Source of the DNA: Undaria pinnatifida
Lineage: Eukaryota; Sar; Phaeophyceae; Laminariales; Alariaceae
Direction: 5' to 3'
DNA length: 64,000 nucleotides
Assembly: GCA_012845835.1 (NCBI GenBank)
Contig: JABAKD010000108.1
Location: 536,001-600,000, forward strand
Shown here: piece by piece, positions 4,501 through 63,062 of the stretch
Position numbering within the stretch: position 1 is the first letter of the stretch
Layout of the letters: every line of letters begins with the position of its first letter
Notes under the pieces: generated by a model
Told to the model about the DNA's origin: nothing
What the model saw: the letters and a program-made list of their open reading frames with translations, nothing else
Databases searched by the model: none
Made by a program: the position numbers and the translations under genes

Positions 4501-7500
4501 GGCAGGGTGAGGCAGTGTCAAGCGCGTTGCAGCCATTGCCGCTTGTTCCCGATGGCTACCCTATTTTCGCTCTTCTCAAAGTTTTTGTTCTTGCTCCTGC
4601 TTCAACGCGGAAAAGGCCCATGGGCTGTATCTCGGGTAACCATGAGGCGGCCTGGTCCCGTTATTCTTGAGGGGAAGAACACGAATGACACACATTCACC
4701 AAGATTCTCTGGACCGTGAAGATGTTACTACTGCAGTAGAAAATGGCACTATTCCTACCCGCGTGGGTGGCTCGACACAATAGGCTACATGGGCCTCCCT
4801 CGGTTAGTTTTTAGTAGAAAACCTCCTCGGGAATGTTTATGATTGATCGACGCATTGAACCCTATGCTGCACATTGCCGAATGCCAAACAAAAAATAAAT
4901 TTGGTTAACACGACAGCAATAACCGCTTTTACTTCCCTCGCATCACTTCCACTTCCGTAACCCCCCCCCGCCCCGCGCATACCCCCCCGCATTGTGCGTT
5001 TTGCGCTCAACAATAGCTGACTCACATGTGGAAAGTTTTGTGCTGCGGGTTTTGCACCAGCGAGGAAGCACGCGAAGCTCGCCTTGTTAAGCGAGTTAAG
5101 AACGCCATGGGGCCTGCGATTGAGCTGGAGAAGCGGATGGCCAAGGCAAGCGACATGCACGCGCAGGTAGGTGCCGGCATTGTCGTGATTTTTTGTGAAG
5201 CCAGACGCCTGAGTCGAGGAGATTTTTGACGATGGATGCTCCTGCTCCGGAGTACCTGGTATATATCTAGCAGTATGGAGGTGGCATGATTTTTTGTTAT
5301 TGTTTTGCTCACCCCTTCTATTATCTTCGCACTGTTTATTTGTCCTTCTCTCTCCCTAGTCGTAACTCAGATCCACGGTATCTAAGCAGGCTCTCTTCTC
5401 CCCCCTCCCCAACTACGGTATGCGCCTTTTGCACGCCTTTTACGTACTTGTCGCGACCATATTCCAGCCCTTTCTTCCCTCGTCGACTCGCGTCGAATCA
5501 TCAATGAACCCGTGTACGTAAAAAAGAAAAAAAAATAGTTGGAGTTGTTTACGTTGGTTGCCATCGTCGGCGTGGTCATCATTACTAAGTCAAGAACGTT
5601 AATTAATTTCCGTGTTGGAGTGAGACGATATATTACATAGTACCGCGTGTTCCCATACATAGGGGGGGGGGAGGGGGAAATATAGTCAATTAATAGCTAC
5701 ATAGGATACAGCATTAGTATATAAGATATACTAGGGGTCCCCCCAGTAAGGCATTGGTGTGCCAGAGCAATAGAGAGCAATAGAGAGCAATGTCATCGCC
5801 TTATCGGTAGGAAGCTATCCTATCCGAGCGATCGAGGCGGACTCCCTCGGTCACGCCTATTAATAGCCAAAAGTTTCCTGTAAGAGTTCTTAGCTCTTAA
5901 CATAAGACCTCCAGCATAAACCGAGGATCATCACGTACCACCGAAAGAAACCAAGACAACATTGCACAGGTCAGAGGAGCAAAACCAATTAAGAAATAAT
6001 CGAAAAAACGTTCGAGAATGTATATATATGTCATACAAGTATATGTGGCACATCAATCAATGTCTCCGCCGTTCGCAGGAAGCTATCCTGTTCGAGCGAG
6101 CCGAGGCAGACTCCCTCAGCCACGTGGAACGACAAGTTTTCTTCAAGAGTCGCATCCTCAACTACGGCGAAGAGAGCGACCTGTCTCCCGTCTCGGCATA
6201 CGCGAAAAGTGTGGCCTGGCTCGTCGTCGTGGCGTACGCCGTGGGTATGTCCTTCTACGTGTGTCTCTTCGCGGTTAAAGCTGGGACCGCGACCTCGGTA
6301 CAATGGATGATCTCCTTCTGGTTGGCCTTTTGCGAGGTGAGGCACTACGTGTTCGTTGCGATGTAGTTCTCTTCTCGTGCCCACCGACGTTTGGTGGTTT
6401 TAGTGTTGTGCTGGGTTTTTTAATGTTTTTGGGTCGTCGTCTGCTGGCTTACCGTCATGGCGCAAGCGGTGGGGTTGTCTTTCTATGTGTGTCTGTTCGC
6501 GGTCAAGGCTCGGACCGCAACTCCCGTAAATAAATTTGATTATCTCCTCTAGGCTGGCCCGTTGGGTATGTGGAACTACTCACCAGCCTGCGGAAGTCTA
6601 GCTCTCATCCTAGCCCAATCCCTAACGCAGTAGGGCTTCCCCTTACCCCAACCCCAAAAATAATGCGGTCTAGAAAAGGCGGCGTCGCTATCTAAGGCGG
6701 TCAAAATCGCTCGGCGCGACTGGAGAATTGCAATCATACCCTAGGATTAATAAGGCGGCTTCCCCTCATAAGGCGGTCATACGGTACTGCTTTGTATAGT
6801 GTATAACACACCACCGCCTTACTGAGGGACGGACCCCTACCATATACTGTATTCAGTATGGTTTTCTTACGCTGCTTTATTCTACAAGAAATTTCAAGTG
6901 TAGAGTCGGCAGATCGATCAATCGATACGATCGATACGATATTAAAGTGGTGCACCCGTATCAATACCGGTCAGTACCAGACTGTACCAGACAGTAGGGA
7001 ACAGTAAGAGACAGTACCGTCGCTGCAGGGTTTTCGGAGCGACACACAGGTCGGGTGGTTTGGGGGAATTGACGAGGCGAGCCAAGTGACGATGGGACAG
7101 GTTTACGACTTCCAAATGCTATTCTGGCCAAATGCGGTCGTACCCTGACGAGAGACTAGGAGGAGCTTAGCCTGGTACTTTCCCGGTGTACAGTCGTAAC
7201 ACAACCCCGCACCGATGCCGGCTGCTCATATTCCCCCAAGATACGGTAGCGCGACCCCCAACTGGTCCCGACCACCAATGTTCCCCCAATATTCCCCCAG
7301 TGTTCCCCCAATGTTCCCCCAATGTTCCCCCAATGTTCCCCCAATGTTCTGCCGTAACACGACCCCTCACTAGTACTGTCAAACAACAACCACGGCGTCT
7401 GCTATACACACACATATATATATACCCTTAATGAGGACAAACAACCCGCAATACGCTCGATCGGAATATCGCACACAGGTTGCAAAGATGAGTTTCGACA

Positions 7501-10500
7501 AATCTTCGATCCCACAGCTGGAGTGTATTTTTATTTTCATAATATGCATAGTCTATATAGTATATATGTATATATATACATCCGGTAGTGTTGTTCAGAC
7601 GTCAGCCTACAAGCACAAAGTCAACTGTATGTCCCGGTTCGCTTCAGATTGTCAACCGACATCCACGACGTCTGCTATACACACACATATATATATATAC
7701 ATCCTGGTCGTTTTCAGATTGTCAACCGACATCCACGACGCCTGCTACATATATATACATCCTGGTCGTTTTCAGATTGTCAACCGGCAACCACGATGAC
7801 TGCTATACATATATACACGTATATATTATGTATGTATATATGTATTATGTATATATATTCCGGTAGTCATGAGATGTCAAGCGACGACCACAACGCCTGC
7901 CACATGTCGTATCCCTCAATAGTGCGAAAGAGTTAATGCAGTCAACCCTACCGTATCAATATTAGGAGAACATTTAACCTCCCTCCCCGCACTGCTATTA
8001 ACACCTACATATCGTACATCGTCTCCCTTGAAGGTTAGGAAGAATGATGCCTTGGGTTAGTACAGCGCCATATATATACATAGAATGATGCATCATCTTT
8101 AACTCCGATTCCCCATGCCAATCAATCTAGATTCATTATCCTGATACTCTTGGCTTTTTATCTATTAATAGCTCTCCTCCTCGTCCTCCTCCTCGTCGTC
8201 CTCCTCTTGCTCCTCCTCTTGCTCCTCCTGTGCCGTCGGTAATTCCGGATGACGGTCAACACACCACCCTGAGCAGGATATCTTGCTGTTGATCCCTCTG
8301 AAGCTGGCGTTCGTCTACCTCTTCCTACCAAGCATGATGCGCCACCGCATGCGCCCAGACATGTTCACCCGAATTCCAAAGTACGCCCCGAGCGTACAGA
8401 TTGCGCGTCGCCGGCCGGATTTGCAGGTTCGGTCGTCGGTTCGTTCGTTCGTTCGCTCATTCCGTCGGTCGTTCGCGATGTTTCCTTTGAGCGCTTCCTT
8501 TAGGCGTGTGCGAAGCGTTGGGAAAAGTACCACATACGTCAGGCAAGTAGTTGTGTTCACTCATTTCAAATATGTCAGCTGTGAGTTTCGACCGATACTA
8601 ACGATAACAAGAGACAGAGTGGGAAACGTCCATCGGTGAAAAACAACGCTCGGATTCCGCTCGGACTTGGATTCCGCTGCAAAGTGCTACTTTCGTTTTT
8701 ACGGTTGGTGGAAGTTGGGCAGCGCAAGCCTAGGATTTTCTCGCGAAGGTTGTCATACCAAGTACTCTGGAAATAAACACTGGCGTTCGGTAAACAAGAC
8801 GGATCATGTTTTTCTTCCCCATCATGCTATGATACCAGCATGACAAGAAAAATACGAGCCGGCTATCCTATCCCTACCCTCCCCACGATCGATGCCAGGT
8901 TTCGAGTTTGATACTGGCGGGGACCATTCCTGATGGCAACGAGTACGAGAAGTTTATCCCCCTGTTCCATCCGAAGAGGCGTTGGTTAGCCTGGCTCACA
9001 GGCGCGGCATTTGCCTCCCTCGCTCTCATCATGGTGCTGCCGGATACGCTACAGGCCATGGTGCGTGCGTGCGTGTGTGCGTGGGTGGGTAGGTGGGTGC
9101 GCTCGATTGGTGCTGTGTACAATACTTTGGCTTAGCTTTGTCGATCATCGTATTTGCGGTTGTCGTACATTCTTTTCTTTTCTAGCGCCTTTATTTTGTG
9201 TTTGTTCGTCATTTTTTGTGGTTGGCACTCGCGCTACCCAATTTTGCCGAATTGTTACCGCTGTGTAAAACGTAATTTCCGGTAGTATCAAGGGGAGCAA
9301 CTACGAAGAAAAAGGTTTCCACAATTTTTATTCAAGGAGTCAGACAGGGGGGCGGGGGTTGCTAACACCAAGTAAAACAAAAGTTGGAAACAAAACGTCA
9401 TTTTCTCGATTCGCACAGAATTTTCAACGCTCCGAGTTTGTTCTTGTTTTCAAGCTTTCTGCGAAGAAGGAGTGCGGCTCCGTTTTCTCTTATAAGTGTG
9501 CTCCCCTCTGGTAGTCGCACGATATTTGCAGTCGCCCCTTGGTTGAGCGTCGCCTAATGTCTGCACAACGTTACCATGGCGAACGGCATCGCGAACGGCA
9601 TGGCGAACGGCATGGCGAACGCGATGGTGAACGCCATGGCGAACGCCATGATAGCTACGATTCCCTCGCCAATTTAGGCTCTTGATATTTGATACCTGGC
9701 ACCTGGTATGTTTTGATGAATATTATTACCATCCTACAAGGGGCGGAAGAACAAGCTACCACTGATAAAAGCTATTATTATCAATAATAGCCTCAGCGTC
9801 GATCACACACACATATATATATATTTCGTTTAAACAAACGCCTACTTCGCGGTAGCCCAACGTGTCTCAAATGCATCTCCTGGTACGTGACCTAAAACGT
9901 GCTGGGAAACCGCACGCCCGTCGTTTTCGGGGCAAACTGTTCGAATTCGACTATTGGACCATTAGACTGTTAATATCCATACATAACAGGATGGTAACTT
10001 TGGGGGGGGTGGGAAACGTTCAACGTGTTAATAATGCCATGTCCCTTCAAAAACGGCGAATCCGTGCCGCGTCTCACGAGGTTCTAACCCTAACCTCATG
10101 ACCGGGGTTCTTGCTGGCATGGTGCTGGTATGGTACTGGTGTGGTACTGTTGTGGTACTGGTGTGGTACTGGTGTGGTACTGGTGTGGTACTGGTGTGGT
10201 ACTGGTGTGGTACGGTACATTTGACAAGTGCTCGTACGACGATAGGGAAAATAGTATACTTCAAAGTATATATGTACACTGTACCTATTTTAAGGTGAAA
10301 ATAAATACAGTATTTGTACCTGTTGCTGTACCTTTTGTTGGGTCGATACGTTCCCGACTGGTGGGGTACAGGTACCTCTTTTGGGCATTTTTTTTCTGGG
10401 TGGCGAGGTACAATACCTCTTTTGGGGTCAAAATGTTTCTGACTGGCGGTGTACAGTACCCCTTTGGGGTATTTTTTCTGGGTGGCGAGGTGCGGTACGT

Positions 10501-13500: not shown

Positions 13501-16500
13501 CGGTTGAATAGTGCCACTGCTCTTTATAGTGCCGGCGAAATTGTTTTGCCCGGTTCAAGGGGCTCTGTACAGTGGGTACCCCGATTTGAGTGCACCCGAG
13601 TTAAGAGTAACACCGCTCACTCGGGAGTCAAGAGCGACCAACTCGGCATGACACATGTCCCGCCACACTAAAGGCTATACACTTCCCACCACATATTCGA
13701 GCGCTTGGTGCTTAACCCCTTTACAACTGAAAACTCGTTTTTGGGGACAAAATCAGTTGGATTTAGTATAGGGAGGGGTTCGGGGGCTCTAAAGGGGTTA
13801 AGAGCGCATGTTTGGACTTAAATGGGGGTACCCAGTGCTGTACCTTTATCGTAATTGAATAGCATGCGTACGGTGGGGGGCTGCCAATAGTGCCGGTTGA
13901 ATAGTACCACTGCTCTCTACTGTGCGGGCGAAATCGTTTTGCGCTATTTGAACTCTCCACAAGTGCAGCAACTAACTCTGTACAGTAGGTATGTTCCCAA
14001 GTAGTGCCGGTGCCCCGAATAGTGCCGGTATATTTTGGCTGGCACTTACCGGTACTATAGGAGCCCCCCAGCAACCGCACGATTACAGTAGGTGGTCCTA
14101 TATAGTAGTGCGGGTCATATAGTGCGGGTGTCCGATATTGTGCGGGTGAAATCGTTTGGCACAATATAGACCCCTCTATAGTGGCCGGTTTGTATATAGT
14201 GCGGGTGCCCGGTATAGTGCGGCTAAATTTTCGTGACACATACCCGCACTATGTAGGGTAAAGCACGCTATCGCATGATTCCTCGATATGGGCAGTCTTA
14301 GAGCTGTGTAATTATTATTAATAGCTGTATTTTGTGTTGTACCTGGTGGGTTGTAGAGAAAAACACCTGCCACCGTGATGTTTAGTCACCCGTACAAAAG
14401 CCGCACAATAGCCGCACAATAGCCGCACAATATCCCGAAACGAAGCGGTCAGCACAAAGTAGGAGGAGTGCACTATCTCTTCCCCCCCCTCTGTGGGAAC
14501 TCCGCAGCATCTGAGCTGTGGGTGTATGGTGCAATGATGCAATGCGCCACCACGAAGGTGAACCAAAGCCCCTGACCGCCTCTGCTTTGACCGGTGCCGT
14601 CTTGATCACGTCAACCTTCCTGAACACCTTTTTCATAGTTAATCCGTTTACTACCGATATTAAAGAAATCCCATACTAATTCCAAGTAGTTTGCCCTCCC
14701 CAAAAAGTGGCAAAAACTTCTGAAATATAATAGATGAACCCGTCGTCACCTACCTGCCCCTTCAATACACTACTACTACCGTATATGCAACGTGTGAACG
14801 TGTTGACAGAGTTTTGGCAACGTGTGAACGTGTTGACAGAGTCTCGGCTCACCAGAGCATTTTTGGCAGAGAGTCACTGAAAACAAGTCTAAAAATCACC
14901 TTGATTGACCAGAGTCATGACAGAGTATTGACAAGAAGAGTCGTGAGTCTTGAGCGAGTTTTGACCAGAGTCGTGCCCACGGGAGCTACGATGCAGCGAT
15001 ATAGGGTGCCCCCCAAAAGGCGTGTGACGAAATCGGAAAGTAAGTGCAACCCGACGCTAGAGGCACCATTTTTTTGCTTTATTTTTGTAAGTGATGGGGC
15101 TCCTCATACAATAATACTATAATAATACTATACTAATACTATATATTACTATAGTATTACTATAATATTACTATACCAATACTATAACAATACTATAATA
15201 TTACTAAAATAATACTATAATACTATACTGATACTACAATAATACTACACTAATTCTACAATAATACTATAATAATACTACACCAATACTATAATAATAC
15301 TATAATAATACTACACTAATACTATAATAATACTATAATAATACTATAATAATACTATAATATTACTATAATAATACTATAATAATACTATAATAATACT
15401 AATAATACTATAATAATACTATAATAATAGCATAATAATACTACAATAATACTACAATAATACTACAATTATACTATGAGATTACTATAAGAGAAATATA
15501 ATACCAGTACTATAAATATACACTATATGATCATTCTTTTTGGGGGATTCGGTGAGGAGTTTTTTTCGTCTCGGGCTCAGTATGCGATTCTCGGAACTGG
15601 AATTCTCGGTCGAATAGCTTCGTTCAAGGGCCGGATTCGGGGGGCGGCTCGAACGCCCCTCGCCCTGCCGTATCCGTTCCGCACGTACCTGGCCGGGATC
15701 GGGTACGTGGGCTGAGCGAGACAAACGAGAAGCGCGCAAATTGTTGGGCGGTATACGCCCGAGCTATTATTGGATCTTCTTGGCATATGCAGAGCTTGAA
15801 CGAAAAAAACATACCGGTACCAGGTATGTATGGGAAAACACTTACTTCCAAGTTCGCGTCACTTCCAAATTGGCTTCTTATTTCGTACCCACCACACTTT
15901 TTTCATGGTCACACCTCGAAGCGTTTGGCCTATAATTGCGCGCATCGTACGACTGACTGCTGTGTCGTTGCTTTTCGATATCGGATTTCAAGGTTAACTA
16001 CTTTTTTTCGAGCGTTCGTTGTCTTCGAGGGCGGCCGTTCCCTACCCAACAACATCATCATTACACCCAGTGTCCGTGCTGAGTCTTCATCCTACATCTA
16101 GACTAGAGATATACAATTTATTATTATGTGATCACAGACTGAGACAGAGTAAACCAAACAATCTCATTTAATCAACAGTATAAAGCAAGTGAAATGCTAG
16201 CGTACCGGGTATGAGAACACAACAAAACAGGCCAGACCACGAAAAAAAAATAGAAAACGAACACAACTCGAACGGAGTGGCTTATAAAAATCGCAGTAGT
16301 ATTAATAGTACGAGAAACAATGCCTTATTGTCAGTCTTTTTCATCGCCGCTCCAAAGAGTCCTTCCGTGTATATTGGTCCACGATCCACCATCTATCTTT
16401 CAGGACCGCATAATAAATACTATGCCACAGTAATTCCATGTATATTTATCCCCACAAATGTGAATGCAGTTCTAAAGGTAGGTGTGACATGGTTCTCAAG

Positions 16501-19500
16501 GTGGTAGTGTTTCGAACGCTTTGTTGTGTGGTTGCAAGAATTGCGCTGGCTGCTGAATGCTGTTGGTAAATACCTGATCAATACGTCGTGTGGGCCAGCA
16601 ATTGATGACAGTTGAGTAAAATATAGGTATATTCTTGAAAATGTCATTTCGTGTTCGCCAAGAACTAACCGGTGATACGAAGTAATAGGGACCTTCTGCA
16701 CAAATATCTCGTGGTACCTATCACTACGCATACGCACGTCAGACGCAAGTCAATTGGAAAAAGAAAAGAATAGAAAAGACAGAGAAGAAAGGAACGGGGT
16801 ATTATATTCCGATTCAAGATCATCACCCTGTTTCAAGCTGAAGCAGGCGCTCATTGCTCTTTATCTGTTGTGGGCAATATTATAAAAAATGAAAATACAC
16901 TCCAGCTGTGAGATCGAAGATTTCGTCGAAACTCATCTTTGCAAGCTGTGTGTGATACTCCGATCGCGCGCATTACGAGTTGTGTGTCCTCATTAAGGAT
17001 ATAGGTCGGCGACTCCCGTTGCAACTACAGTGTAGCTATCAGGGTCAACAGGGTGATGTTAGTCAGTCTGTGCGCGGAAACTATAAACCCCTTTTCTGAG
17101 GGGGACAAAATTTGACAGCTGCGGAAGGAAATGCATCCTTTTATCAAGTGAATCTTGTAAGTCGAATAACCGGTGAGGGGGGTGGGGCGGAGTTTTGAAG
17201 GACGTGGGGGCCTGGTTTTGATCAAAAGCGAGCGGGTTTGGAGGGGGGGGGGAGGGGGGGGGAAAGGGGGCAATTTATGCATGTAAGCTATAAATCCTTT
17301 CGAGGGGATAAATCTGACGGTTTTGGCACCAGTATATTATTGGGGGCGGGGGGGGGGGGGCGTGTGGGGCAGCTCAATATGTGCCTGGAAACTATACATT
17401 ATTTTGAGGGGATAAATGTGACGGTTTTGGAAATAATACATCAGTTTATCATGTATATCCTGGGGTAAGTCGTACAATCAGTGAGTAAAGAGAGGGTGGA
17501 GTGTTCGAGGGGGTGGGGTTGGGATGGGTTGGGGGGGAGGTGGGGGGTGTGGGGGCGGGGGGGGGGGAGGAAGGGCTTTAGGTGAGGGGTTTGTTATACG
17601 TGTGGTGCTAGGTCTAGGCGATGGTGCGGGTGATGGGGAAGAAGGGGGCGTTCGAGGCGGGGGGGGGGGGGGGACACAGCGGCATGGATGGCTCTCGAAA
17701 GATAATGAGGTGATATCCTGTGCGTGAAGTCTTTATTAATGTGGCGGATTTCGATATTTGGTGGGGCGTTTGAGTAAGAGAGAGCAAGAGGGGGGGTGGG
17801 GGGGGGGGGGGGTGGGGGATTTTTTAGGAGGTTTAGGTCACAAATAATATTCAAATACACTTCGGCTGTGAGGTCAAAGATATGTAGCAGCTTGTTATAC
17901 GCGTGGTGCTAGGTCTAGGCGATCGTGTCAATATATATGGCTGCTTTTATGCCGGGACATGTCGATTTGACCGCTCTTCTTACGTCCCGAATGGCATTAT
18001 CGTGGCGCCCTGGGGGCTCTGGGCACCAACTGCATAGATTCATCCCGAGGTCGAGCGTTTGGTACGAATTGCGGTCGCATAGCAATTTTTTGCCCTACGC
18101 GAGTACCAGGTACAGTATGCAAGAAAACCCGCGAAAATATTAGCGAGCTTAGGTTTATTACCCAATAAGCGAATGAAATCGGAATTTTTAACGATTTTCT
18201 TCGGTGCCGCATAAGCAAGTGACAAAGAGTTGATTATTCGGGCACAACAAGCATTCCACAATGATTATTCGACTATTTCGCCAGTGAGTCAAATACGCAC
18301 TGTTTTGGCCTAAATACCCGGGGGGGCCTAAATCCTGCATATAAATGGCTCTAATTCGTCCATTTTAAATTGCATTTGGTGCTGTTGTTGCTGTTCAAGT
18401 GTTTCTCATCCTCATTCCGAGCGTGCTTGCTCGGCACGCCTACATGATATTGTAGGCTCAAAATCGCTTTTTGGTGCGACCTACCATGCAAATAACTCAT
18501 TGAACTGCGCTCGCATTGCAAATGTTTGCCGTATGCGAAAAGTATGCGAAAAAACCCGACTCAGTCGAAATAATTGTGAGCTTATTGGGTCAAAGACTAC
18601 CAGCAAATCACGAGAAATAACCCAATGGAGTCGGGGTTGACACGCCGTGCGGGGAGGCACATCGACCCGGGAGATCATCGTTATAGTTCTCGCGTTGGTG
18701 GGGCTGTAGTCTAGACATTCAGAGGATTTCTTAACCGGGGACGGGGCCCTATCTCCCCCGTGTGCGACGGAACTGCCCCCCATTGGTTGGTGAGCCTCTA
18801 TCATCCTCCTACTAGGGTGGGGGATCGCTGTGGAGCTCAAACCAATCAGCGATTCTAGCCAATGGAACTGGGGGTTCCACATCTTGGGGGGCGGTGTCGA
18901 CCCGAGAGAACTCGGTTTTCTTCCCCCGTTCGTGAATTTTTAGATATATGGAATGACCCCTGGACCGGGGATGGGACCCTATCGTCTCCGGGTGGTGGAG
19001 CTGGCTCTATTGTATAGGAACCCCAGGGGGATTTCCACACTGTGCGGGGGGGTATCAATCCTGGTGATATATAGATTTATACCCCTTAAAGGATTTATAG
19101 CTTCCACGCACAAATTGCCCGCCCGTCCACCCCCCCCACCCGCCCCCCCCCCCCCCTTCCCCCCCCCTCCAAACCCGCTCCCTTTTGATCAAAATCAGGG
19201 CCCCACGTCCTTCAAAAACTCCGCCCTCCCCTCACCGGATATTCGACTTACAGGATTCACTTGTTAAACGGATGCAGTTCCTTCCACAGCTGTCAGATTT
19301 TGTCCCCCTCAGAAGCGGGTTTTATAGTTTCCGCGCACAGACTGACTAGCATCACCCTGTTGACCCTGATAGCTACACTGTAGTTGTAAGGGGAGTCGCC
19401 GACCTATATCCTTAATGAGGACACACAACTCGTAATGCGCGCGATCGGAGTATCACACACAGCTTGCAAAGATGAGTTTCGATAAAATCTTCGATCTCAC

Positions 19501-22500
19501 AGCTGGAGAGTGTATTTTCCTTTTTTATAAAATATCCGTGTTCGTTCCCGGGTTGTCGAAGTTGTACACATGTGAATGGATTATGATTATGGGAATGGAC
19601 CCTATCGTCCTCAGATGACGGTTACTTTATTGTGTACGATCTCCGGCAAATGAGCGACCAGCAATCAGACAAAAAGGCCATACCAGGAATTTTATGTTTA
19701 TGTTTTCGTCTAAACTCGATCGAGCCTGAAATTCTTAACTACCAAATCATTTGTTCAGTGCTATCGCGTACTACTAATATTCCATCGACCAGACGAGAGC
19801 GGTCTACAGCAACAAGTAGAGGCATTATTTTAATTGCATTCGAGGAATTGAATGAAGAAGGCAGCGACACCGTGTTTCACGCCTAGAATACCGTTAGCAA
19901 GTCTCTCCACGATCACTATACACACACAGAGAGACACATACATTCGGTCTGCGAGCCTCGGATCTAGATATTATAGAAGTCAAAATACACTCCAGCTGCT
20001 GTGAGATCGAAGCTTTTGTCGAAACTCATCTTTGCAAGCTATGTGTGATACTCCGATCGCGCGTATTATGTTATGGTACGTATCATGCATGTAGTAGCAG
20101 TAGCTGGCTCAATGCGCGCTTGTCAGTTGCTACGTAGAGAACATGCATCAAACATTTAGCCATCATCCCTCTGCCGGGTTGAGTCGAAAGTCAAAAAACG
20201 CACTCGAAACGACTCTTCGTGGCCAGACTAGAGGGTCAGTCTGCGTGGGCTCGGATTTATCCGATCGAAATACATATGATGAAGCTCGGAATCGGATTCA
20301 CGCAAGAAACGGAGAAACGGAGAAAACGACAGAAGAAGTAAGTAGTCCAGTGTTAGTCTAGTCTATATCAATCTCTTGGCATTACTTTACGTTCTACACG
20401 CGTAGACCATGTGTTTCGTTGGAAACGGTTTTTACTCTCTATCGAATATTGAATCGAACAAGTCGAAGTGCTGCCCTGCCCTAGGGTGCCGGCGTATGCC
20501 GGCACCGATGCGAGTACCGTAAACTACACAAGATAACACACCCCCGGTGATACATTTGAGCGCTTGAAAATATTATCACCGGGTGTGGTATCCTGTGGGG
20601 GGTGTGGTATCTTGTGTAGCCCCGGTGATAGAGTGCTGGTCGCGGCGGCCCCCAGGGGGTGTGATAAACCAGGGGGTGTGATAGCACGTCCGACCTCCCA
20701 CGGGGTACGTTTGGGGGTGTGATAAATATGGGGGTGTGATAAACCAGGGGGTGTGATAGCACGTCCGAACACCCACAGGGTGTGTTTGGGGGTGTGATAA
20801 ATATGGGGGTGTGATAAACCAGGGGGTGTGATAACCTCCGAACACCCACAGGTCGTGCTTGGGGGGGGATACCGAAGCACTCCTTGTAGAGTTGAGCCGC
20901 TGCTGCGGCACACTTGAAGGGGTGTGGTATTGCGGGGGAGTGATACCTGTCCGAACGTCCGCACACACGGTATGTTTTTGCGCCTGCTGTACAGCTGCGG
21001 TCGAAGCAGTTGTCGGAGAAGCGGGGGCACTTGCAGAGGCATTTTGCTCTCCCTCAACGTTCATGTTGTTGGAGGTCTCCACACGGGGTGTTCCCCCCGC
21101 ACACAGGGTGTGGTGTTGTGTGCCCACGGGGCAGATGTTCTATGACCCCGGTGGTAGAAAAGAGGGACCCTGTGAATGTATGCGGCGTAACTAAAATTAT
21201 CACCGGGGTGTGGTATCTTGTGTAGCCCCGGTGATAAATCGATGGTTGCAAAAATGCGCCCAAAATTATCACCGGGGTGTCGTATTCTGTGGGGGGTGTG
21301 GTATCTTATGTGGGTGTGTTATCTTGTGTAGTTTACGGTAGCACCTACTACTACTGCTGTAGGTCCTGCTCATGTTCCTTTCGTTTCTTACCCGTGGGCA
21401 CGTATCATATTAACGAAGGACACTTTTGAATCGAAAATATTTATTTTTTATTAATCGAATTGAATTCGATTCGATTTGTTTGGTGGAAACATACCAGGTA
21501 CGAATTTGGCTCCTATCGGGAAACCACGTGTTGCGTGCTGTCAATGGTTTTTTTTCGATCGTAATAATATTTTGATCTACCGTGACGGCGATGCAGCTAC
21601 CAGCGACGTCTAGAACTATCCCCTTTCTGTGTTTTCGGTAGTTTCGCTTTTTTGTCGCGGCACTTGGCTTTTATCGAGCTGGTGAAAAATATGGACTTGC
21701 GACCGCCATTATTTATTTTGAAGCGCCACAGCCGGGGTATGTATGCTACAAGTATGGTGTGATCTGTTACAGCGCAGTATAGCAGTGAGCGCGGCTGTTG
21801 CCCCGGTCGCCACTCATTGGGCTTCACGATTTATCGCCTCTCTCGGCGGTGATTTTGTCAATAATCATAATTCCCTTAAATAAAGCTACGACAGATTGCC
21901 TCGGGGACATTGGCCCAGTGAGAACATGCCATGCAAGTGTGATTTGCAAGTTGGATGAAATCCTCCACTTCAAATCGAACTCCCCCCTGAGGGGGTGTGC
22001 ATTTACCCGGGTATTACCCGTACCCGGGACTTCTGTAAGTTCTGTAGGACATCCATACCCGTACCTGCAACTTCTGTAAGTTATGTACGCCCGCGCCACA
22101 ATACCCGGAACTTCTAGAAATTCTGTAATAGGACATTCATACCCGTACCCGGAACTTTCCTGTGCCACAATACCCGGGGTGCGGGTACAGCGCCTTTTGC
22201 ACCCGCCCGGAACTTCTGTGAGTTCTCTACGCCCGTGACACAATACCCAGAACTTCTTAATCCACAAACCCTACGGAACATAACCTTGAGATTTTCATCG
22301 TACGTACATATGTTTTGTTTTTTGCAGCATTAAGTTTCATACTTTTTGGGGGGATGGTATGTACCTTTTTTTTGTTTTGTGTGTGTGTTGTTTTGTACCT
22401 CTTTTTGTTTTTGAATACTTGTATAGACTATTGTTCCTTTTGGTTTTCACCCTCTGGTTTTTGTACCATGTTATTTGCTCCGCACAGGTGAAAGCCGAAA

Positions 22501-24125: not shown

Positions 24126-24148
24126 AGTATTATACCTGGTATAATACT
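24126..24148. repeat. Perfect 23-bp palindrome centred on TACCTGGTA
   Basis: AGTATTATACC, a central T, then GGTATAATACT. The arms are exact inverted copies of 11 bp. Confidence 0.95.
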
Positions 24149-25217: not shown

Positions 25218-25499
25218 GTGATTTCCTGCGATGTTACCTACAACGGCTGGTCGTCTTTGGAAAGTGGTCGACCGCAAACCGTACACTGCCTGCAACAACT
25301 GTGAGGACCGCGGACATTCGTCGGGACTCCAACAAAAAATGCATGACTTCAACAAGTGAACAAACTCGTGGACCACATACATACGGGCTTCAGGAGCACA
25401 ATGTCACGGGAAATGGTTGACGGGAAAACGCACCGACGTTAACGATACATACAGCAGTTATTTGATACCTGGTATATGGGCAGTCGTAGAGACTTCGGA

Positions 25500-32934: not shown

Positions 32935-33005
32935 TTATTCGAACGTCAGCTGTGAGTTCGACAAGTTTGGGGTCAATATCCATCATTGCAAGCTGCGTAG
33001 TCTAA
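32935..33005 (+). repeat. Diverged R2 fragment
   Basis: GAACGTCAGCTGTGAGTTCG, then GGTCAATATCC and TTGCAAGCTGCGTAGT. The homology stops at a TACCTGGTA word (33,006), where other R2 copies continue TTGTTGGTACT. Confidence 0.7.
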
Positions 33006-33015
33006 TACCTGGTAC

Positions 33016-36274: not shown

Positions 36275-36810
36275 CTGTTTTAAACAAGAGAAAAAAACAG
36301 CGACATTTTTTCGGCGGAAAGAGAAGACGGGGCGTGTCAGTAAGTGTGGGCGAACTGCCGCGTTGTTTTGCATACAGCAGGGGTCCCTTTGCATTAGTGC
36401 GGTGGCTTGCCAGACGACGTTAGCAGCACTGAAGCGGCACCCCGCACTATCCCGAGAAGGTGCGGTACAGCACTATATAGGACAAGCAAGGTCATGATAG
36501 GCCATGATGACTGCACTAAACTGGGGCAGCGCACTGAAGTGTGCCGAAATAACGCGGGGCCACCAGTGTACACAGATCATATAGATTACACAGATCATAC
36601 ACTCTGTGCGCATCCAAAGTGTCATTCGATCTATGCCATTATGTGCATATATCAGGTACCAGACCAAGTACCCGGTGTAGCTTTGCAAGGTTGCCACCCG
36701 ATGCACGAAGCGTGGTCCTACAGTGCACTGTACCTGGTATAGTCTAACCTCCAACGCTTCGCTTACGAACCGCCCGCCGTCCACTTTGGGCCACCATCAT
36801 GCGTCACAAG

Positions 36811-37997: not shown

Positions 37998-38221
37998 TAT
38001 CATGGAGCCCCTACGTAGTCCCGTGGAGATCGCAAGTGACGTGGAGATCGCAAGTGACGTGGCAGCTTCATCCCGTTACCGGGACAGCTCGTTGTAACGT
38101 ACCTGGTACAACGTAACCCAATATTTCTTAACACTGCACTCCCGTTTGGGGGACAAAGCGCTTGGAATTAGACCATGCTATCTTTAGGGGTTGGAACAGT
38201 GTTAACAACTATCACTAGGAG

Positions 38222-38700: not shown

Positions 38701-38775
38701 TGAGGATATTACTTCCGATGTATCAGGTACCTGGTATGTATCTTCCCCTGGTATATACACGCGTGACGGTCAGAC
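38701..38775 (+). repeat. Direct repeat pair member with TACCTGGTA insert
   Basis: GATATTACTTCCGATGTAT, then CAGGTACCTGGT, then ATGTATCTTCCCCTGG and GTATATAC. The paralogous stretch at 39,163-39,230 reads GATATTAGTTCCAATGTATC then TTCCC without the insert. Confidence 0.85.
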
Positions 38776-39112: not shown

Positions 39113-41200
39113 TAACCATCTATATGAACAGGACATGGCAGTTAGATGGGAACATCTCGGAACGGGATATTAGTTCCAATGTATCTTCCCTTGATATATA
39201 TATGTATATATATGTATGTGCGTGACGACCAATATTACTGGTGCAGAGGCATTTTTCCAATTTCCTGTCATCCACACAGCACCAGATACAACAAGAAAAT
39301 ATGGATGTCAATCGTTGGACGCATCCATTTAATGTAAAGAACACACAGAGGATATTATATAAAGTACACCAGCAGAGTGCATTTCTAACTTTAAAAAAAC
39401 TACACAAGATTTGGAAAGAACGGTATATCACGTGAAGGGAATGTACACTGACTATGTGGCTCTATTACATAAGGCGTGCAGCTCTCGCACGACTGCTGTC
39501 ACGAGACACACGCCCCACGACGCATAGGCCATAGTAGAGGTAACACCACGTAAATCGCCGTGGCACGTAAACAAAACTATAACGCCATGGTAGAGGTGAG
39601 ACCACTTAAATCGCCTCGGCACGTGAACAAAACTACCACTCGGAATAACCATTACGGGGTTATTTTTTTTTTTTTCTTTAATTAGTACCAGGTACCAGGT
39701 ACTTCGAAGTACTTCGAAGTACAACACAAGACCATACGTAAAAGAAGTAAGACCATCAAAATTGGATTATCATGGGGTGGTCTTGAATTGGGCACGCCAC
39801 TACTGTGTACCAGGTATAACACTTAGTCAAACGCCTTGCTAAAAACACCCATATTCCCGTCGGCTTCTTGATGGCAGAGGTGCAGAGGGCACAGGTGAGA
39901 GGCGTACGATAACACCGCCACACCGCCAAATAAACATCATGAGGCCGAGGTACAACGACATAAAAACCGACTACGAGATCGACACTAGCAAGCGTCTGCA
40001 ATAGGAAGGGCATGGAGCAGCACGAACATCAAAAATGGCAACAGCACGCGTGTGTTACAGCTCCTCCCATTGCAGTTACAAAAAATACGCATCCCTTACC
40101 CCAGCGCTTGGGCCTTTTTTTCTTTCTTAGGTTACGACGGCCAATGAAACCTGAAACCGTCAGGTTGTTTGTCCTTTTCTTCAGAGCTTTTCACGAGTCA
40201 ATATCCTACCAGCGGTTCCGGTCAGCAGGTTTTCAAATTCTCGCAGGTTGAGTCGGGTCGGGTCGGGCCGGGTCGGGTCAGGAGGCGTTTAAACTGCTGT
40301 CGCGGGTCAGCTCAAGAGGTTGTTGGCCATCACGTGTCGCGCCGGGTCAACCTGGCCAGACCGGGCCCACGAGAAGCCACCTGACCAGTGCAAAGCCGTG
40401 CTGTTTCTTGCCTGTGATTTCGTGTGGTCGATGTTGTCGTAATAGTAACTTTTTTTGTGATTTTCGCCATTTTTTCCCTCTTCAAAGTCTTGAAAGGGAC
40501 TAGTAATCCTTTTACTACGTATTGCAAACATATTCACACACTAACTTCAAGCTCATAGCCTGCCCCCCCAAAAAACTCTGAAGAACGTGGGCCCGGTGCT
40601 CAAGGCCGCGGGGGATCCATCGCCAAGGAATACGTTGTCAAGCAGGCGCGAGTAAGCGTTTCGCCAAGAAAAATACAAACGAGTTGGAAATTCGCAATAA
40701 ATTTGGGAGTTTCATAGCAAAGGTCCACTGTTTTCGCATTATGCCAACTCCTGATGCAAACATACGAGAATTCGAACGACAGGGTCGGCGCCCTTTTTGG
40801 CCCTTTGTCGAGCCCAATGATCGATTACCCCAAACGGGAACGTAGTTTGTCTGTCCGCACTTTGTGTTACTGTAGTAGTGCTTCAAAAGATCGACGAAAA
40901 GCCCCGCTAACTGCTGTACGTAGTGGGCAATGTATGGTTTTTACATGGCCTGACACACGTACAGTATAGGCCTGCCAACAAGATTGTCCTATTTGGAATG
41001 AGCCTCAGATTCTTATTAATGACACCACCCTTCAGAACAACCTTGAGCATAGGCCATACTGCCTCAGGCTTTTCGTAGGCGCTTGATTAGATCGCACTCG
41101 TCGCTTTTGGGTGTGTATACTATAACCAAGACTACTATAATCAAGACTTTATACTACAATCAGGGCATAATCAAGTCCCTAACGGGTTAGCTAGTGCGAA
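39113..41200. other. Intergenic stretch with short palindromes
   Basis: Contains a tandem TACCAGGTACCAGGTAC (39,686) directly followed by two overlapping TACTTCGAAGTA palindromes (39,700-39,721), and a GGGTCGGGTCGGGCCGGGTC run at 40,254. A small duplication of CACGTAAACAAAACTA context lies near 39,540-39,640. No gene recognised. Confidence 0.5.
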
Positions 41201-47699: not shown

Positions 47700-49960
47700 T
47701 AATAGCCCCCAGCACTTCGTCGCAAAAAACGAGCACACAATTCCATGAAATGCCATAGTCTGAAGGGGCGATGTTTTGACGTCATCTACGGGACGACTGC
47801 AGCGTTGCTCGATTTACCGGGTGACCGTGCTCGGCTTCTAAAGTGATGCTATTTATGGGACGACTTTATGGGACGACTTCAGCGTTGCTCGGATTACGGG
47901 GTGACCGTGAGCAGCTTCCGTCACAAGTGCTAGACACCACCAAGCACTACACACGACTCCGCCATAGAACGCAAGCATTGATAGAATAGCCGGAGGCCAT
48001 GCACCATAACCGTCCATGATACCCGTACCGTACCGGTGCCGTACTGGTACCGTACCGTACGGTACTGCTGTTATGGTAAAAAGAATACCCGTGGAGGAGT
48101 AGAGAAGGGAACCCTCGGCCAAAATACTACCAGGTACAGCAGTAGCATAGTATTAATATATAGTGTAACATCATATTTGCAATGCCTACCGTATCTGTCT
48201 CCTAGTTTATCATCACCGAGCTCGACTCTATTGATAGAAGGCATCGGCGCGGGCATTGAAGGTGCTGGACGTACATGTGCGGAAATATCAGTGTCATGTT
48301 AAGAACACACACATCGGCCACTTTAAGCAGGCTCGCTAAGGTTAACCCCTTCAGAGCCTCAAAATGCCCCCTATACTATCTTCAAGTAAAGTTCTCCCCA
48401 AACACGGGCTTCCAGTCGCAAAGGCGTTAAGGGATGGGGGGTACGCGATTTGTCCGGGGTGCAAGGCAGGGAGCACGGCGTTTCATTAGTATCATTAGTA
48501 TCATTAGTACCATTAGTATCAAGCATGCATGAGCGCGTCACGCGGGAAGCAAGATGACTCATAGCTCATGTCTATTATACTGCCGGACGCTCTTCCTCGA
48601 GCAAAGACTGGTCAGCGGTGACACTGGACAAGGCCGCAATTCCTGTGGTTAAGGATTAGGTCGTTATACAGACTACGGCTCCCTCTATAGACTACAAGCA
48701 GTAGCACTGGTATGTGCAATGTGCCAGCATTTCACAGGCACTATAGCGGCAACCGAGATTACTCCGCATACTCCAGCTAGTTGTTCGTTCTATATGTGCC
48801 AAGCGATTTCGCAGGCACTGCAGCGGGAACAGGCACTACTCAACCGGCACTATCGAGGGAAACCGGTGCAAAAGCCATGGTCATCACAGAAAAACACACA
48901 TCGTCGAAACTCATGTAGCACACTTGGCAAATGACATTATAGCTCATGCAAGCCTTCTCTTCGGGATGTGATGTGGTGGCGTTGAAATTGTCAAAGGGTG
49001 TCTCCAAGTACTTTTACAAGAGAACCATTAGCCACCGGGTGAGTAAACCGGCAAATAACACCGCACCGACTACTAGGATTACTAGCCCACAGGAGTTTAC
49101 ATTTTGGTTTACAAGGTTCCCCTTCGGGAAGTTGGGGTTCCCCTTCGGGAAGTTGTTTGGCATGAGATCCCACGGGTGTCTTCACGTTGAAAAAAGAAAA
49201 AAAAAACTCCAAAACTAAAAGAAAAAACATTAATTTACCACCGCGCAGGTAACCTGCCACCAAGTCAAAGTAAGCAGCACCAACGATTTTACATGATACA
49301 CGTAGGAACAGCTGTTCCCCTTTTTCAACCCGCGACTTGCGACACCCCCGAGAGTTCCCCTGTGGCACATCGCCAAGGGGAACCTTCAGCGCGTGCCTTG
49401 ACTTATTTCGACCTCGCTGGAGCGGTTGGAACGGAACGAGGCTGTTCGCATTCGTTCGTTCCATTCCAACCTGTTTGCCTGTTTGTGTCTGCGTCTGGAG
49501 AATTCGGACAACCTACCGGAACAGATAATAACTCAAACGACTTTGGCGGCGGGCCCAGGCCCGTGCACTTCGGCTCTATAGCAGGGGTGCTGTCACACAG
49601 GCAGTCACACAGGCAGCGAGAACTCCTCACACAGAGAACAGCTTTACACGCAAATTTACCGCCAGGCGAGCCTCACAGAAGACAATTAGCCCTCTAAATG
49701 GCACCGCCGGGACAAATCTAGAAGTTGTCATGTTGTGATGTTGCCGTCATGGCCCGACAAGGACTACTGATAGTTCTATAACACGAACATCGGTACCACA
49801 CCGCTGTTGCCAGAAAATATATCGCCAGAGCCTCGTTCGCAACCCGGTATTTTGCCTCGTGATCCTCCTGGTCAGGCCATGGCGGTATTGCGAGGCTCCT
49901 GCCGCGGGCGAGTCCTACGGCGTCCATATACAATACGCTCCACCTCGTGAGTGTTACGTG
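47700..49960. other. Intergenic stretch without recognised genes
   Basis: Small features: a GTACCG/CGGTAC-rich self-complementary run at 48,020-48,066, (CATTAGTAT)n at 48,483-48,520, and a duplicated GGTTCCCCTTCGGGAAGTT at 49,118-49,156 whose CCCCTTCGGG forms a short hairpin. No convincing exon. Confidence 0.4.
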
Positions 49961-49974
49961 ATCCCATGTGCACC

Positions 49975-56065: not shown

Positions 56066-56578
<513 letters not shown>

Positions 56579-56903
56579 CCCGGTCGCCCCGGTAGCGTAT
56601 GAGGTTATCCTCGAGCCTGGTATCGGTCAGTTTCGTAAGTTCGAGCCCCCCCGAGTACATACTTGTATAAATTCGTAGGGACTTTTTCTTGTGCACAAAT
56701 TGGCTTGCGGAAAGCGCAAGGGCGTGAGTTAGCAACACTCGATGAAAAATCGACGAGCAGTGAGATTGCTGAATCCTATGCGCGATAAAAAATGAAGGCA
56801 AGAACTGGGGGGGAGAAGGAAGGACACCTGTGACCACGGCTTATCCAAAAGCTAGAAAGTAGAAATGCGTGAAAACAAAAGAGAAAAAAAAAAAAAAAAA
56901 AAA
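56579..56903 (+). mobile_element. tRNA-derived SINE, copy 3
   Basis: Starts GGTCGCCCCGGTAGCGTATG directly at the end of the (AAC)n tail. A-box-like TAGCGTATGAGG (56,593-56,604), B box AAGTTCGAGCCCCC (56,637-56,650), body with ACTCGATGAAAAATCGACGA and GACCACGGCTTATCC, and a 20-base poly(A) at 56,884-56,903. The only copy with a clear long A tail. Confidence 0.85.
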
Positions 56904-56971: not shown

Positions 56972-58543
56972 CAGTCGTCCCCGCTTTGAAGACACTCTTC
57001 TTAATTCAACTCCCCGCTTTAAGGACACAAAAAATACCAGAAGCATGGTGCCCCGCAGATGGGAAAACTTAGGCAAGAGTCGTGCATGAAATCGACGATT
57101 TCACAGGCCGAGGTCCGCTCTCGTCTCGAGGATGTCCGCTTTTATATGATAGAAATATTTCAAGGACGTCAGCCGTGAGTTCGACGAATTTCGGGTCAAT
57201 ACTTATCTTTGAAGCTGCGTTGTTGGTACTTGTAATATACTATTTTATAAAAAATATTTCAAGGACGTCCGCCGTGAGTTCGACGAAATTCGGGTCAATA
57301 CTCATCTTTGCAAGCTGCGTTGATGGTACTTGTAATATACTATATGGGTGAGTTTTTTATTGGGAGGGGTCCTATTATTTTGCTTTAAAAAACAATATAT
57401 ATACCAGTATAATATATAAAAATATTTTAAGGACGCCAGCCGTGAGTTCGACGAATTTCGGGTCAATACTCTTTCTTTTTTTATAAAAATTTCAAGGACA
57501 TCAGCCGTGAGGTCGACGAATTTCGGGTCAATAGTCATCTTTGCAAGCTGCGTTGTTGGTACCTGTAATATACTATGTGGGTGAGTTTTTTCATAATGGG
57601 AGGGGTCATTTTGTTTGGTTAAAAAACAAACACACATAATATATACAAGTGTATACATATTTTATAAAAAATATTTCAAGGACGTCAGCCGTGAGTTCGT
57701 ACGCGAACGGAAGAGACGGCGATTAAAGCGAAACGGCGTACCTTTTTTCCAAGACTGTGGATTCGTTGACTCATGAAACTCAAGTCAAGCCAAGAGCGAA
57801 GGAGGGGGGCGAGGTGCAGGCGACTCTTCGGGATATGGGCGGCGTAGTGTTTTTTTTTAGGATAACTGCACTTTGGATGCCCGCGTTCGTTGTTTGGTGT
57901 ATTTTTGTTTGGCTTGGGTGAAGTCTCGTTTAGCCAAACTTAGAATAATTTGTTTTGTGTTTGCCTCGTTTTTACCTTTGGGAAGGAGCGGTGTCCTCTT
58001 TTTCGGTGTACTTTCCCGATTTTTACGTCTGGTGTGGTCTGCGTTACCAACATTTTACCAAATAGTGTCGTCCCAAGTGTGGCTGGTTTCGTTTGGTCTC
58101 CATGTGGCAGGTAGGTAGCCTGTGCCGTATCAGAGTTCCAAAAACGGACGTGATGTTCACCGTGAGGATAACGCCTCAACAATAATAAAAGCCTACCTGG
58201 TACAACAACACCAGCGCGCTACCGTGCACATTACACTATGTAGGTCGTGCTGCACCCCTTCCCGCGTTTCGGTGGGAGAGGGAAATTCAAACGATGGTAT
58301 GCACGTATTGGCGTACAGCAGCAGTAGTTGCGGCTTTCAAATCACCTTGTGTCGTAGGTTTCAAACAACACCGTTTCGTGGTCACATTCCTGCTGCGAAT
58401 GCGCGTCTTGTGACATATGCTACGTTTACGTTGGCCCCGTGGACGGTAAGTTAGTGGCGCCGGAATCTCAAAGACACTTACTTCCCCGCGTTAAAGACAC
58501 TCGAAAAAAAAAACGTGGTGTGTCTTTAAAGCGGGGTCGACTG
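56972..58543. mobile_element. 1.57-kb TA-flanked element with pogo/Tc1-like inverted ends
   Basis: The left end CAGTCGTCCCCGCTTTGAAG (after TA at 56,970) pairs with the right end CTTTAAAGCGGGGTCGACTG (before TA at 58,544). Subterminal CCCCGCTTTAAGGACAC and CCCCGCGTTAAAGACAC repeats lie near both ends. TA duplication plus CAGTCG ends fit the Tc1/mariner-pogo group. No transposase is recognisable, and the interior carries an R2 array, so it is non-autonomous. Confidence 0.8.
57160..57710 (+). repeat. Array of five R2 units
   Basis: Starts near 57,160, 57,245, 57,420, 57,485 and 57,660. Each opens with TTTATAAAAAATATTTCAAG or a near version, then GACGTCAGCCGTGAGTTCGA. Some units continue to GTAATATACTA and GGGTGAGTTTTTTATTGGGA. 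Unit lengths are uneven, as if internal pieces were deleted. Confidence 0.9.
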
Positions 58544-59915: not shown

Positions 59916-60059
59916 AACCGCTGTTGTAGAAAGCAAGAAGGCGACGGCAAACAAGGTGGTAGCAACGCACCCGGCCGACTACAGTACCAGGTAGTTGGTA
60001 GAACCTTTTACGTAACCTCAAGCTAATGCGCCTTGCAGCGTGGGTAGGCGCAATTGGAT

Positions 60060-60260: not shown

Positions 60261-60509
60261 GACGGTAAGCAGAGGACAGATCAGGCAGCAATGCTCCTAG
60301 CCCGATGGCATTTAATACCTGCTCGTTGCACTCGAAACCCAGTTTGGGTGGTAATCGGTACACCGGTTGAGTGGTATCATCTGCTTTGTTGATGCGTCTT
60401 TGCTTGCTTAATGATTAGGCTTCGTTTTCGCATAGGGGACGGGGGCGAAGGTGGCGGTATGGGGGCCAATATAGTACTACACTGCTGTGTCATCAGACCC
60501 AGATATTAC

Positions 60510-60688
60510 AGTAGGTGGCCCTGTATAGTGCGGTTCATATAGTGCGGGTGTCCGATACTGTGCGGGTGAAATCGTTTGGCACAATATAGACCCCTTTATA
60601 GTGGCCGGTTTTCATATAGTGCGGGTGCCCGGTACAGTGCGGGTAAATTTTCGTGACACATACCCGCACCATATAGGGCCACCTACTG
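60510..60688. mobile_element. Complete 179-bp MITE with TA duplication
   Basis: CAGTAGGTGGCCCTGTATAG at the left pairs with CTATA..GGGCCACCTACTG at the right, each flanked by TA. The interior has three TATAGTGCGGGTG-like words and AAATCGTTTGGCACAATATA. Homologous to 14,086-14,258. Confidence 0.9.
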
Positions 60689-61042
60689 TAAGAGTGCCCA
60701 GGTGATAGACCACGCGGCCATGCTCCGAATCCTACAGTAGTAGTAGGGCCATTCGAACCCAATACGATGTGGTTGCTGCCCCCGATGCTGGTTGGATGGC
60801 CTCAGCTGCTGTGTTGCTACATTGCTGGCGCTTGGTTGTGTTTGTTTTTCATTTTTGTGTTACCCTGTTTCTTTCTTTCCAATCGATGTTTCCCTTTTGT
60901 TTGGGGTTTCTTTCTTAATCATCCTTTTATCTTTTGTCTTTTACTGCAAATAGTCTAGTGTGCTGGCTTGCATGCTCTCGTTTTTTGCCGGCGTGCTCAT
61001 GGGGTTGGCCTTGCATGGCCAAATCACCCTTCTGTACTTGCA

Positions 61043-61862: not shown

Positions 61863-63062
61863 CCCTTCGAGGGGCTCGAGGTCTGCTCTCGAGGTCGGCA
61901 GGGTCAGTATTGAGTTTACGTGCAAACCTGAAAACCTCGCACGAACGTGCAATAATTAAACGCCTGGTCAAAAAAATCCTATGATGAATCTTCGTCAACA
62001 TAATTAGAGGCAATCTGCTGACCGTTCTCGCAAAAATTGTCGTCGTGAAATGTGTGCCCACGATAAACGTAAATATAAGGATCGTTTTGATATTGACATT
62101 GATGAGTACATGGTTCTTACATTTTTACTCAAAGTAGTCGGCAATATACAACATTTTGGACCAAATTTAAGAATCGTTGTGTTATACACATTGGTATAAT
62201 ACCGTCCTTATAATTACGTACACAGTGGAAGAGACGATGGCAAAAGCTACAGATAGCGTGACACGACAAGCAGAAAATGGCTGCAAGTACGGCCTCCGCA
62301 ACTCGCCGTGCATCGCTTCCAAACAGCAACCACTGCCAACCCAACAAAGTCCATAGCCCTGCATGGGAAGGGGGGCACTCACCCTGTGCAATCGAAGAAG
62401 GAGTACGGTTGAACGCAGCAGTTGAACCCTTCCAACCCCTCCACCCCTACCGACTCCACCCCTATCTCGCTTCCAAATAACGCAGCAGCTAGAAGGGCTC
62501 GCCGGAGTAACCTCATAACAGACCACCTCCGCCGACTACCACCTGCAAATGCCGTGAACACCGGAGCAGGCCTTCGCCTTCCTTCACCCTGCGTTGCTCG
62601 CAGTGTCGACTACACGTGCACCCACGCAAACGTGTAGGTCCGCGAACAACCCTGCCTGTGAGATGCAGACACTCGTGGATTTTGAGCAACGTTTTGGCTC
62701 AAACCGACAATTTGCACCATTACCTGGAAAGGCGTTTTTGTAAAGGAGATTTTTTACCAGAGTGGAAAAATCTCAGACCAATCCACGGGGTCAGAATCAT
62801 CAGTTGTGGTGTTTCTGGTCAAGGACGATTCGGCAGCGTCGGAAGTCGGGAGTCGGGAGTCGGGAACGAATGTATGTCCGGATTCCACCGGGCAGTCCTC
62901 ACCAGCCAGCCCTATTTTGTTATCTCGCTGTTACCTTGGGACCTTCCTGTGGAAGTGAGGCAGCCGCATATCTATCTATCAATGCCGGCCGTGTAAAGAA
63001 ACATGAAATTATTGCATACCGTACATGACAGACTAGACTACCTGGTATAGACTAAATTGTGT

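Follow-up and report, generated by a model that had tools for sequence, protein, structure and literature searches.

Transposons of the Tc1/mariner type insert at TA, duplicate this dinucleotide and leave 2- or 3-nt 3' overhangs on excision, and the footprint of Sleeping Beauty and Frog Prince is C(A/T)GTA following the TA (PMC3878927). Footprints of Stowaway miniature inverted-repeat transposable elements (MITEs) in intron 4 of the Triticeae beta-amylase gene are described as including a reused TA with an insertion beside an older footprint (PMC1925063). For the brown alga Ectocarpus, Tc1-Mariner elements and MITEs are reported, with 17 families and almost 12,000 mostly non-autonomous copies (PMC12477816). 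The subject here is the 9-bp palindromic word TACCWGGTA in a 64,000-nt stretch of Undaria pinnatifida DNA (GenBank assembly GCA_012845835.1, contig JABAKD010000108.1, positions 536,001 to 600,000 of the forward strand; termed the window), the copies of which are probably healed excision scars of TA-targeting transposons of the Tc1/mariner type.

Set against the same passages on Sleeping Beauty and Frog Prince, the Undaria word is similar in having a duplicated TA, a palindromic residue and an A/T centre, and differs in leaving the 5-bp residue CCWGG in place of their 3 bp (PMC3878927). The Sleeping Beauty-type word TACWGTA is itself enriched in the window and is also present at a reused TA in L050, a relative of one of the window repeats. 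Short end fragments between TA duplications and repeated use of one TA are shared with Stowaway, although its footprints as described are several irregular residues of 1-4 bp in one intron, whereas in Undaria a uniform 5-bp residue is present at tens of thousands of places (PMC1925063). The Tc1-Mariner elements and MITEs outlined for Ectocarpus are a plausible kind of source for such scars, and neither "footprint" nor "excision" occurs in the main text of that paper (PMC12477816).

As far as seen here, the form of the scars is already known and their scale and 5-bp residue are new. A literature search for TACCWGGTA found no paper, the matches listed for TACCAGGTA show no connection to it in their titles and abstract openings, and no paper pairing "excision footprint" with "brown alga" was found. 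HIP1 of the cyanobacteria is likewise a short palindrome highly over-represented across the genome, but unlike TACCWGGTA it is not known to arise through a TA-duplicating insertion.

Abundance of the word in the window and the genome

The window contains 20 exact copies of TACCWGGTA, where dinucleotide-keeping shuffles average 0.34 and never exceed 2 (none of 100 shuffles reaches 20) and Markov models predict 0.46 (first order) or 0.51 (third order). The original prediction, made from the sequence letters alone, had put the excess at about 40-fold, which these values bear out, and all 20 copies are located where it placed them, the second of its overlapping pair being at 39693. After masking of 17,085 bases of self-similar DNA and exclusion of low-complexity words, TACCWGGTA ranks as the top over-represented 9-mer (18 compared with 0.42 expected). 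The surveyed genome (511,146,479 bases in 68 contigs) has 85,263 copies compared with 3,475 of the reversed control word. For comparison, an Oligoflexales metagenome-assembled genome (MAG) of 2.8 Mb has 24 copies and 11 of the reversed control, and 101 kb of viral contigs not selected by TACCWGGTA have none, with 1.5 expected.

The half-sites TACC and GGTA are enriched solely at a spacing of 1 base (22 pairs), with 6 pairs at spacing 0 and 0-4 at spacings 2-11. TACCAGGTA and TACCTGGTA are reverse complements of each other, so that W at the centre indicates strand orientation only and TACCWGGTA is one double-stranded word, with A and T centres in the ratio 11:9 in the window; a separate W-versus-S meaning of the centre was dropped, A/T merely reflecting orientation. 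The copies are clustered, with 10 placed within 8 kb (P 0.0018). The flanks of the window copies fail to align together, which rules out a single repeat family as their source, in agreement with the original prediction. The further claim that no copy lies in an exon holds for the 17 stop-to-stop frames of at least 200 amino acids, those of a long interspersed nuclear element (LINE) included, none of which contains a copy; exons were not otherwise predicted.

Occupied sites, empty sites and shared TAs

Locus L036 is composed of three tandem units, two of them empty (GTGCGTACGTTGG) and one with GTGCGTACCTGGTACGTTGG, an exact addition of CCTGGTA at a TA; in longer context two units read GATAAGTGCGTACGTTGGTG and one reads GATAAGTGCGTACCTGGTACGTTGGTG. 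Left of the insertion there are no mismatches in 92 positions to the nearest unit, and on the right identity extends over 57 bases, beyond which differences appear, an indel among them (8 of 80 mismatched when counted ungapped), so that the insertion is recent compared with the duplication. In the first unit homology covers a short left stretch only (35 of 92 mismatched). A second comparison is provided by the repeat surrounding the copy at 33006, with the following features:

32942..33069, strand +, dispersed repeat holding the 33006 copy, whose genomic relatives supply the empty site
32998..33004, unstranded, TAGTCTA, interpreted as GTCTA (5 bp) inserted at one of the TAs in the repeat
33006..33014, unstranded, TACCTGGTA, interpreted as CCTGGTA (7 bp) inserted at the TA that follows in the repeat

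The window repeat reads CTGCGTAGTCTAATACCTGGTACACCGG, parsed as GCG-TA-GTC-TA-A-TA-CCTGG-TA-CACCGG. Of the 758 candidate places in a genome search for it, 40 were scored, including the window itself, and 10 of the other 39 scored relatives were retrieved, chosen from alignments extending past the word. Twelve bases of the window repeat are absent in 8 of these 10. Both TAs are kept in six of the eight empty relatives (L048, L049, L051, L053, L054 and L055), with the second TA altered in L052 and L056. At the same second TA, L050 gains 5 bases and reads TACAGTA, and the 7 bp added in L047 are of another sequence. The simplest reading of the 12 bases is two events, in which GTCTA (5 bases) may have been added at the first TA and CCTGGTA (7 bases) at the second. 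Judged by these alignments, TACCWGGTA is almost certainly the product of a 7-bp insertion that duplicates a TA and leaves a 5-bp palindrome. No empty sites were found within the window.

Tandem units of ~300-325 bp around a Tc1-like element at L045-L046 (G000:C36:5063200-5064599 and 5067001-5068500) carry a scar at the same place in the compared copies, indicating that this scar is older than those duplications.

The word also forms chains with words of other inserts through shared TAs. In the window 8 of 40 TACCWGGTA sides share their TA with another unit compared with 21 of 458 control sides (sampling-based P of 5e-5), a value that is optimistic as the unit list was compiled after viewing the window data; the genome-wide counts depend less on that choice. 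Across the genome there are 3,654 TA-sharing doubles of TACCWGGTA compared with 2 for the control, and mixed TA-GWC-TA-CCWGG-TA chains number 367 and 403 (770 in all) compared with 1. Among the 50 doubles that come first in the + strand listing of contig C1 there are 21 A-A, 13 T-T, 9 A-T and 7 T-A arrangements, and the 16 of opposite orientation are beyond what tandem slippage makes. An "interrupted pair at 9691" in the original prediction corresponds to TACCTGGCACCTGGTA at 9693-9708, one mismatch away from a TA-sharing double. The remaining copies and chains of the window are as follows:

5253..5261, unstranded, TACCTGGTA putative scar, exact match with flanks compared
9693..9708, unstranded, TACCTGGCACCTGGTA, putative double scar, its shared TA altered by a single T>C difference
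15812..15826, unstranded, TACCGGTACCAGGTA, TA-CCGG-TA and TA-CCAGG-TA with a common TA
18104..18117, unstranded, TA-CCAGG-TA-CAG-TA chain
21492..21500, unstranded, TACCAGGTA putative scar, exact match
24133..24141, unstranded, TACCTGGTA putative scar in the middle of a longer imperfect palindrome, as judged by eye from flanking sequence
25466..25474, unstranded, TACCTGGTA putative scar, exact match
31928..31936, unstranded, TACCAGGTA putative scar, 8 bp from TAGTCTA at 31913
34984..34992, unstranded, TACCAGGTA putative scar, exact match
35221..35229, unstranded, TACCAGGTA putative scar, exact match
36731..36746, unstranded, TA-CCTGG-TA adjoining TA-GTC-TA
38100..38108, unstranded, TACCTGGTA putative scar, exact match
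38721..38736, unstranded, TATCAGGTACCTGGTA, putative double scar with one C>T difference in unit 1, from a one-mismatch scan
39686..39721, unstranded, four-unit chain TA-CCAGG-TA-CCAGG-TA-CTTCGAAG-TA-CTTCGAAG-TA
39808..39816, unstranded, TACCAGGTA putative scar, exact match
48128..48144, unstranded, TA-CCAGG-TA-CAGCAG-TA chain
58194..58202, unstranded, TACCTGGTA putative scar, exact match
59980..59993, unstranded, TA-CAG-TA-CCAGG-TA chain
63034..63054, unstranded, TA-GAC-TA-CCTGG-TA followed by TA-GAC-TA

Counting outward from the TA on either side, A is present at +1 in none of the 40 window half-sites, and A or T is present at +7 in 34 of 40; when 14 sites from L036-L042 are added the values are 2 of 68 and 57 of 68 (2 of 28 and 23 of 28 for the new sites alone). 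Both positions were chosen after viewing the window, the 14 new sites serving as the test, and the half-sites are not wholly independent as a few neighboring sites have flank bases in common. This symmetric preference fits a dimeric transposase picking its target, and a dimeric binding protein is also compatible. The centre-changed form TACCSGGTA occurs 9,212 times in the genome compared with 2,599 for its control, which amounts to 7-8 in excess for every 100 intact copies, and one-mismatch words in the window comprise 12 transitions (3.6 expected) and 15 transversions (7.5 expected). From these counts the decay of the scars looks neutral, as expected for formerly identical copies.

Sister words and candidate source elements

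Several other words with TA boundaries are also in excess in the window, namely TAGWCTA (21 compared with 3.7 expected), TACWGTA (25 compared with 9.15), TACSGTA (21 compared with 8.0) and TACTTCGAAGTA (4 in the window; 4,167 in the genome compared with 16). The residues CCWGG, GWC, CWG and CTTCGAAG are all palindromic. When all TA-bounded inserts of a given length k are counted in the window, palindromic inserts exceed expectation by more than non-palindromic ones at k=3 (112/43.5, a ratio of 2.58, compared with 181/142.4, or 1.27), at k=5 (34/11.1, or 3.07, compared with 215/176.2, or 1.22) and at k=8 (6/0.8 compared with 256/186.1). Elsewhere in the same genome, 70 kb taken from further contigs give corresponding ratios of 2.14 and 1.15 (k=3), 2.21 and 1.18 (k=5) and 3.60 and 1.23 (k=8), with hardly any palindrome excess at k=6 (1.29 and 1.07). 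The 101 kb of viral contigs have every palindromic ratio below 1 (0.79 compared with 0.93 at k=3, and 0.69 compared with 0.96 at k=5); TACWGTA occurs there 31 times with 20.5 expected, 12 of the 31 being forced by the pattern used to select those contigs. Window words bounded by CG, GC, CA-TG or GA-TC have no consistent excess; AT-bounded words are in excess, probably from AT microsatellites.

Two further words were noted. TACAGCAGTA/TACTGCTGTA occurs 7 times in the window with 0.14 expected (at 21352, 26518, 38287, 41399, 48135, 61595 and 61626). TATTAATA (TA-TTAA-TA) occurs 13 times in the window with 0.63 expected and 15 times in L036-L042 with 0.39 expected, partly as microsatellites in L040; it is a poor marker because it is over-represented in the viral control as well (10 compared with 2.84).

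Two TA-flanked inverted-repeat elements in the window have ends that may be related to the sister words:

20515..21340, strand +, 826-bp TA-flanked inverted-repeat element with ends CCGTAAACTACACAAGATA / CCGTAAAC; a 3-nt CCG overhang would give TACSGTA
60507..60690, strand +, 184-bp TA-flanked inverted-repeat element, MITE-like, with ends CAGTAGGTGGCCC; a 3-nt CAG overhang would give TACWGTA

The 24 interrupted half-sites, viewed by eye as element ends, show no common continuation. The genome contains 8 matches to PF01498 (Tc1-type transposase), 7 of them above cut-off and some only together with neighboring pieces, and 8 partial matches to PF13358 over ~40 of 146 positions, 7 above cut-off. 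At the DDE_3 locus L043 no clear element ends were seen. The element at L044-L046 has terminal inverted repeats that match exactly over 32 bp, and a stop interrupts its transposase frame. In its family 12 of 17 non-self matches start at most one base from CACTCTG; 22 host-repeat matches stop at the TA two bases before CACTCTG, which together place the ends at TA-GA-CACTCTG ... CAGAGTG-G-TA. The resemblance of these ends to TAGWCTA is suggestive only of the element being a feeder of that class.

Other elements of the window include a LINE-like element at 50396-56864 (reverse transcriptase, with a second copy at ~51.7-55.5 kb), placed between long inverted-repeat arms such as 51395-51477 with 56397-56479 (98%), as if the LINE had inserted into an older palindrome; its reverse transcriptase matches PF00078. 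Reverse transcriptases 79% and 57% identical to it (best segments) are present on the Oligoflexales MAG contigs JALZUO010000167.1 and JALZUO010000060.1, which are without TACCWGGTA and are probably eukaryotic contamination in a bacterial genome record. The region 16881-19527 is element-like, with paired 307-nt inverted arms that are 92% complementary and 2,033 nt apart, and the 18104 copy lies inside it. An Rfam search gave no match, 20 further window frames (from 494 of at least 60 amino acids) gave no Pfam match above cut-off, and in searches of viral and prokaryotic collections for relatives the 6 contigs returned by one search and the 12 by another were judged chance matches, two further searches being without match.

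Excision as the probable origin of the word and the alternatives

The proposal in the original prediction of an insertion footprint is backed by the two occupied/empty comparisons and by the chains of differing TA-bounded words. A transposon of the Tc1/mariner type would enter at a TA and duplicate it, and on exit the transposase would cut inside the element, its terminal bases staying as 3' overhangs on both flanks. Identical overhangs CCAGG (or CCTGG) would then anneal through their complementary outer bases, and the central A.A or T.T mismatch would be repaired either way to give TA-CC(A/T)GG-TA; the palindromic form and both orientations are observed. Overhangs of the same sequence would pair only with complementary outer bases, leading to a palindromic residue with a free centre. 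The net gain would be 7 bp, CCWGGTA, at one TA, as is seen at two loci. The new TAs would be retargeted, so that scars chain and mix with the GWC, CWG and CTTCGAAG families as in the observed chains, and with neutral decay some 85,000 (the count observed) may have accumulated.

A number of observations weigh against this model. The 5-bp residue exceeds the published 2-3-nt overhangs, a length met only by the sister 3-bp words CWG, GWC and CSG, and it is the CWG and CSG words that match the two window element ends, over three letters each. An ungapped comparison of ends over 141 kb revealed no element terminating in CCWGG. The L044-L046 element was rejected as the CCWGG source as its ends do not predict CCWGG; one of its pieces alone scores 28.5 bits compared with the PF01498 cut-off of 31.5, and the other matches DUF7769 only. 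The 12 bases at 33006 could in principle be one single event, and in the search for a second window test no relative spanning the 63039 site was found. The listed doubles have an excess of the same orientation (34 of 50, p 0.015), indicating that some are copies or slippage products. TACAGCAGTA is TA-bounded yet no simple palindrome, and the overhang rule would account for it only if one strand served to repair both mismatches; the 7-bp insert of L047 is also no simple palindrome. With A/T-only inserts excluded, there is no palindrome excess at k=4 in the other 70 kb (2.12 compared with 2.16) or at k=6 in the window (1.31 compared with 1.34).

A more specific and tentative suggestion is that the scars record a transposase with a 5-nt or otherwise unusual stagger that was extremely active and has few copies left, perhaps with near-programmed excision in the life cycle, or else a new TA-directed micro-insertion without a full element. 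The second of these, taken as a full alternative to excision, is improbable. An enzyme would place the 7-bp CCWGGTA directly at TA, by aborted or end-only transposition or as a tiny self-spreading palindrome, consistent with the exact addition at two loci and with the lack of a CCWGG-ended source in the 141 kb. The sister words with other inserts, however, obey the same TA grammar and chain with TACCWGGTA, and two of them have TA-flanked elements in the window matching their first three letters (CAG at 60507-60690 and CCG at 20515-21340). No enzyme moving 7 bp is known to us. The "self-propagating micro-palindrome" first suggested would need a machine of that kind, whereas excision scars are a known process.

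Methylation at CCWGG is known from other systems, and TACCWGGTA might be maintained by selection as a site bound or modified by a dimeric protein. The palindrome, the sharpness of the word and the symmetric preference outside it, roughly one helical turn away from the centre, are in keeping with such a site, but the word arises by TA-duplicating insertion and chains with other TA words, and the centre-changed form is present at several per hundred (9,212 compared with 2,599 for the control and 85,263 exact). As a selected binding or modification site predicts neither TA duplication, chains nor neutral-looking decay, this part of the original prediction is disfavored and very unlikely. Slightly less probable still is local mutation only, in which replication slippage or hairpin-templated correction creates and multiplies the word; tandem doubles are present with the noted excess of same orientation, but single copies sit in unrelated flanks, 16 of the 50 listed doubles are opposite in orientation, and the two compared loci have an identical inserted word untemplated by their flanks. 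Composition or chance is excluded by the 20 copies compared with 0.34 in the window and 85,263 compared with 3,475 in the genome.

Excision scars have mostly been observed singly. If excision by transposons of the Tc1/mariner type is the true reading, the scars form a readable genomic record of past element positions, and ~85,000 uniform scars together with the sister types would allow a statistical reading, from a single assembly, of the history of cut-and-paste transposition, the choice of targets, the chemistry of the overhangs and the outcome of repair. They would count as a sizeable source of small insertions and would serve as clean presence/absence markers among strains and related species. 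Should the 5-bp residue derive from an enzyme of the Tc1/mariner type, it would point to a cleavage geometry beyond that given in the passages cited here on these elements.

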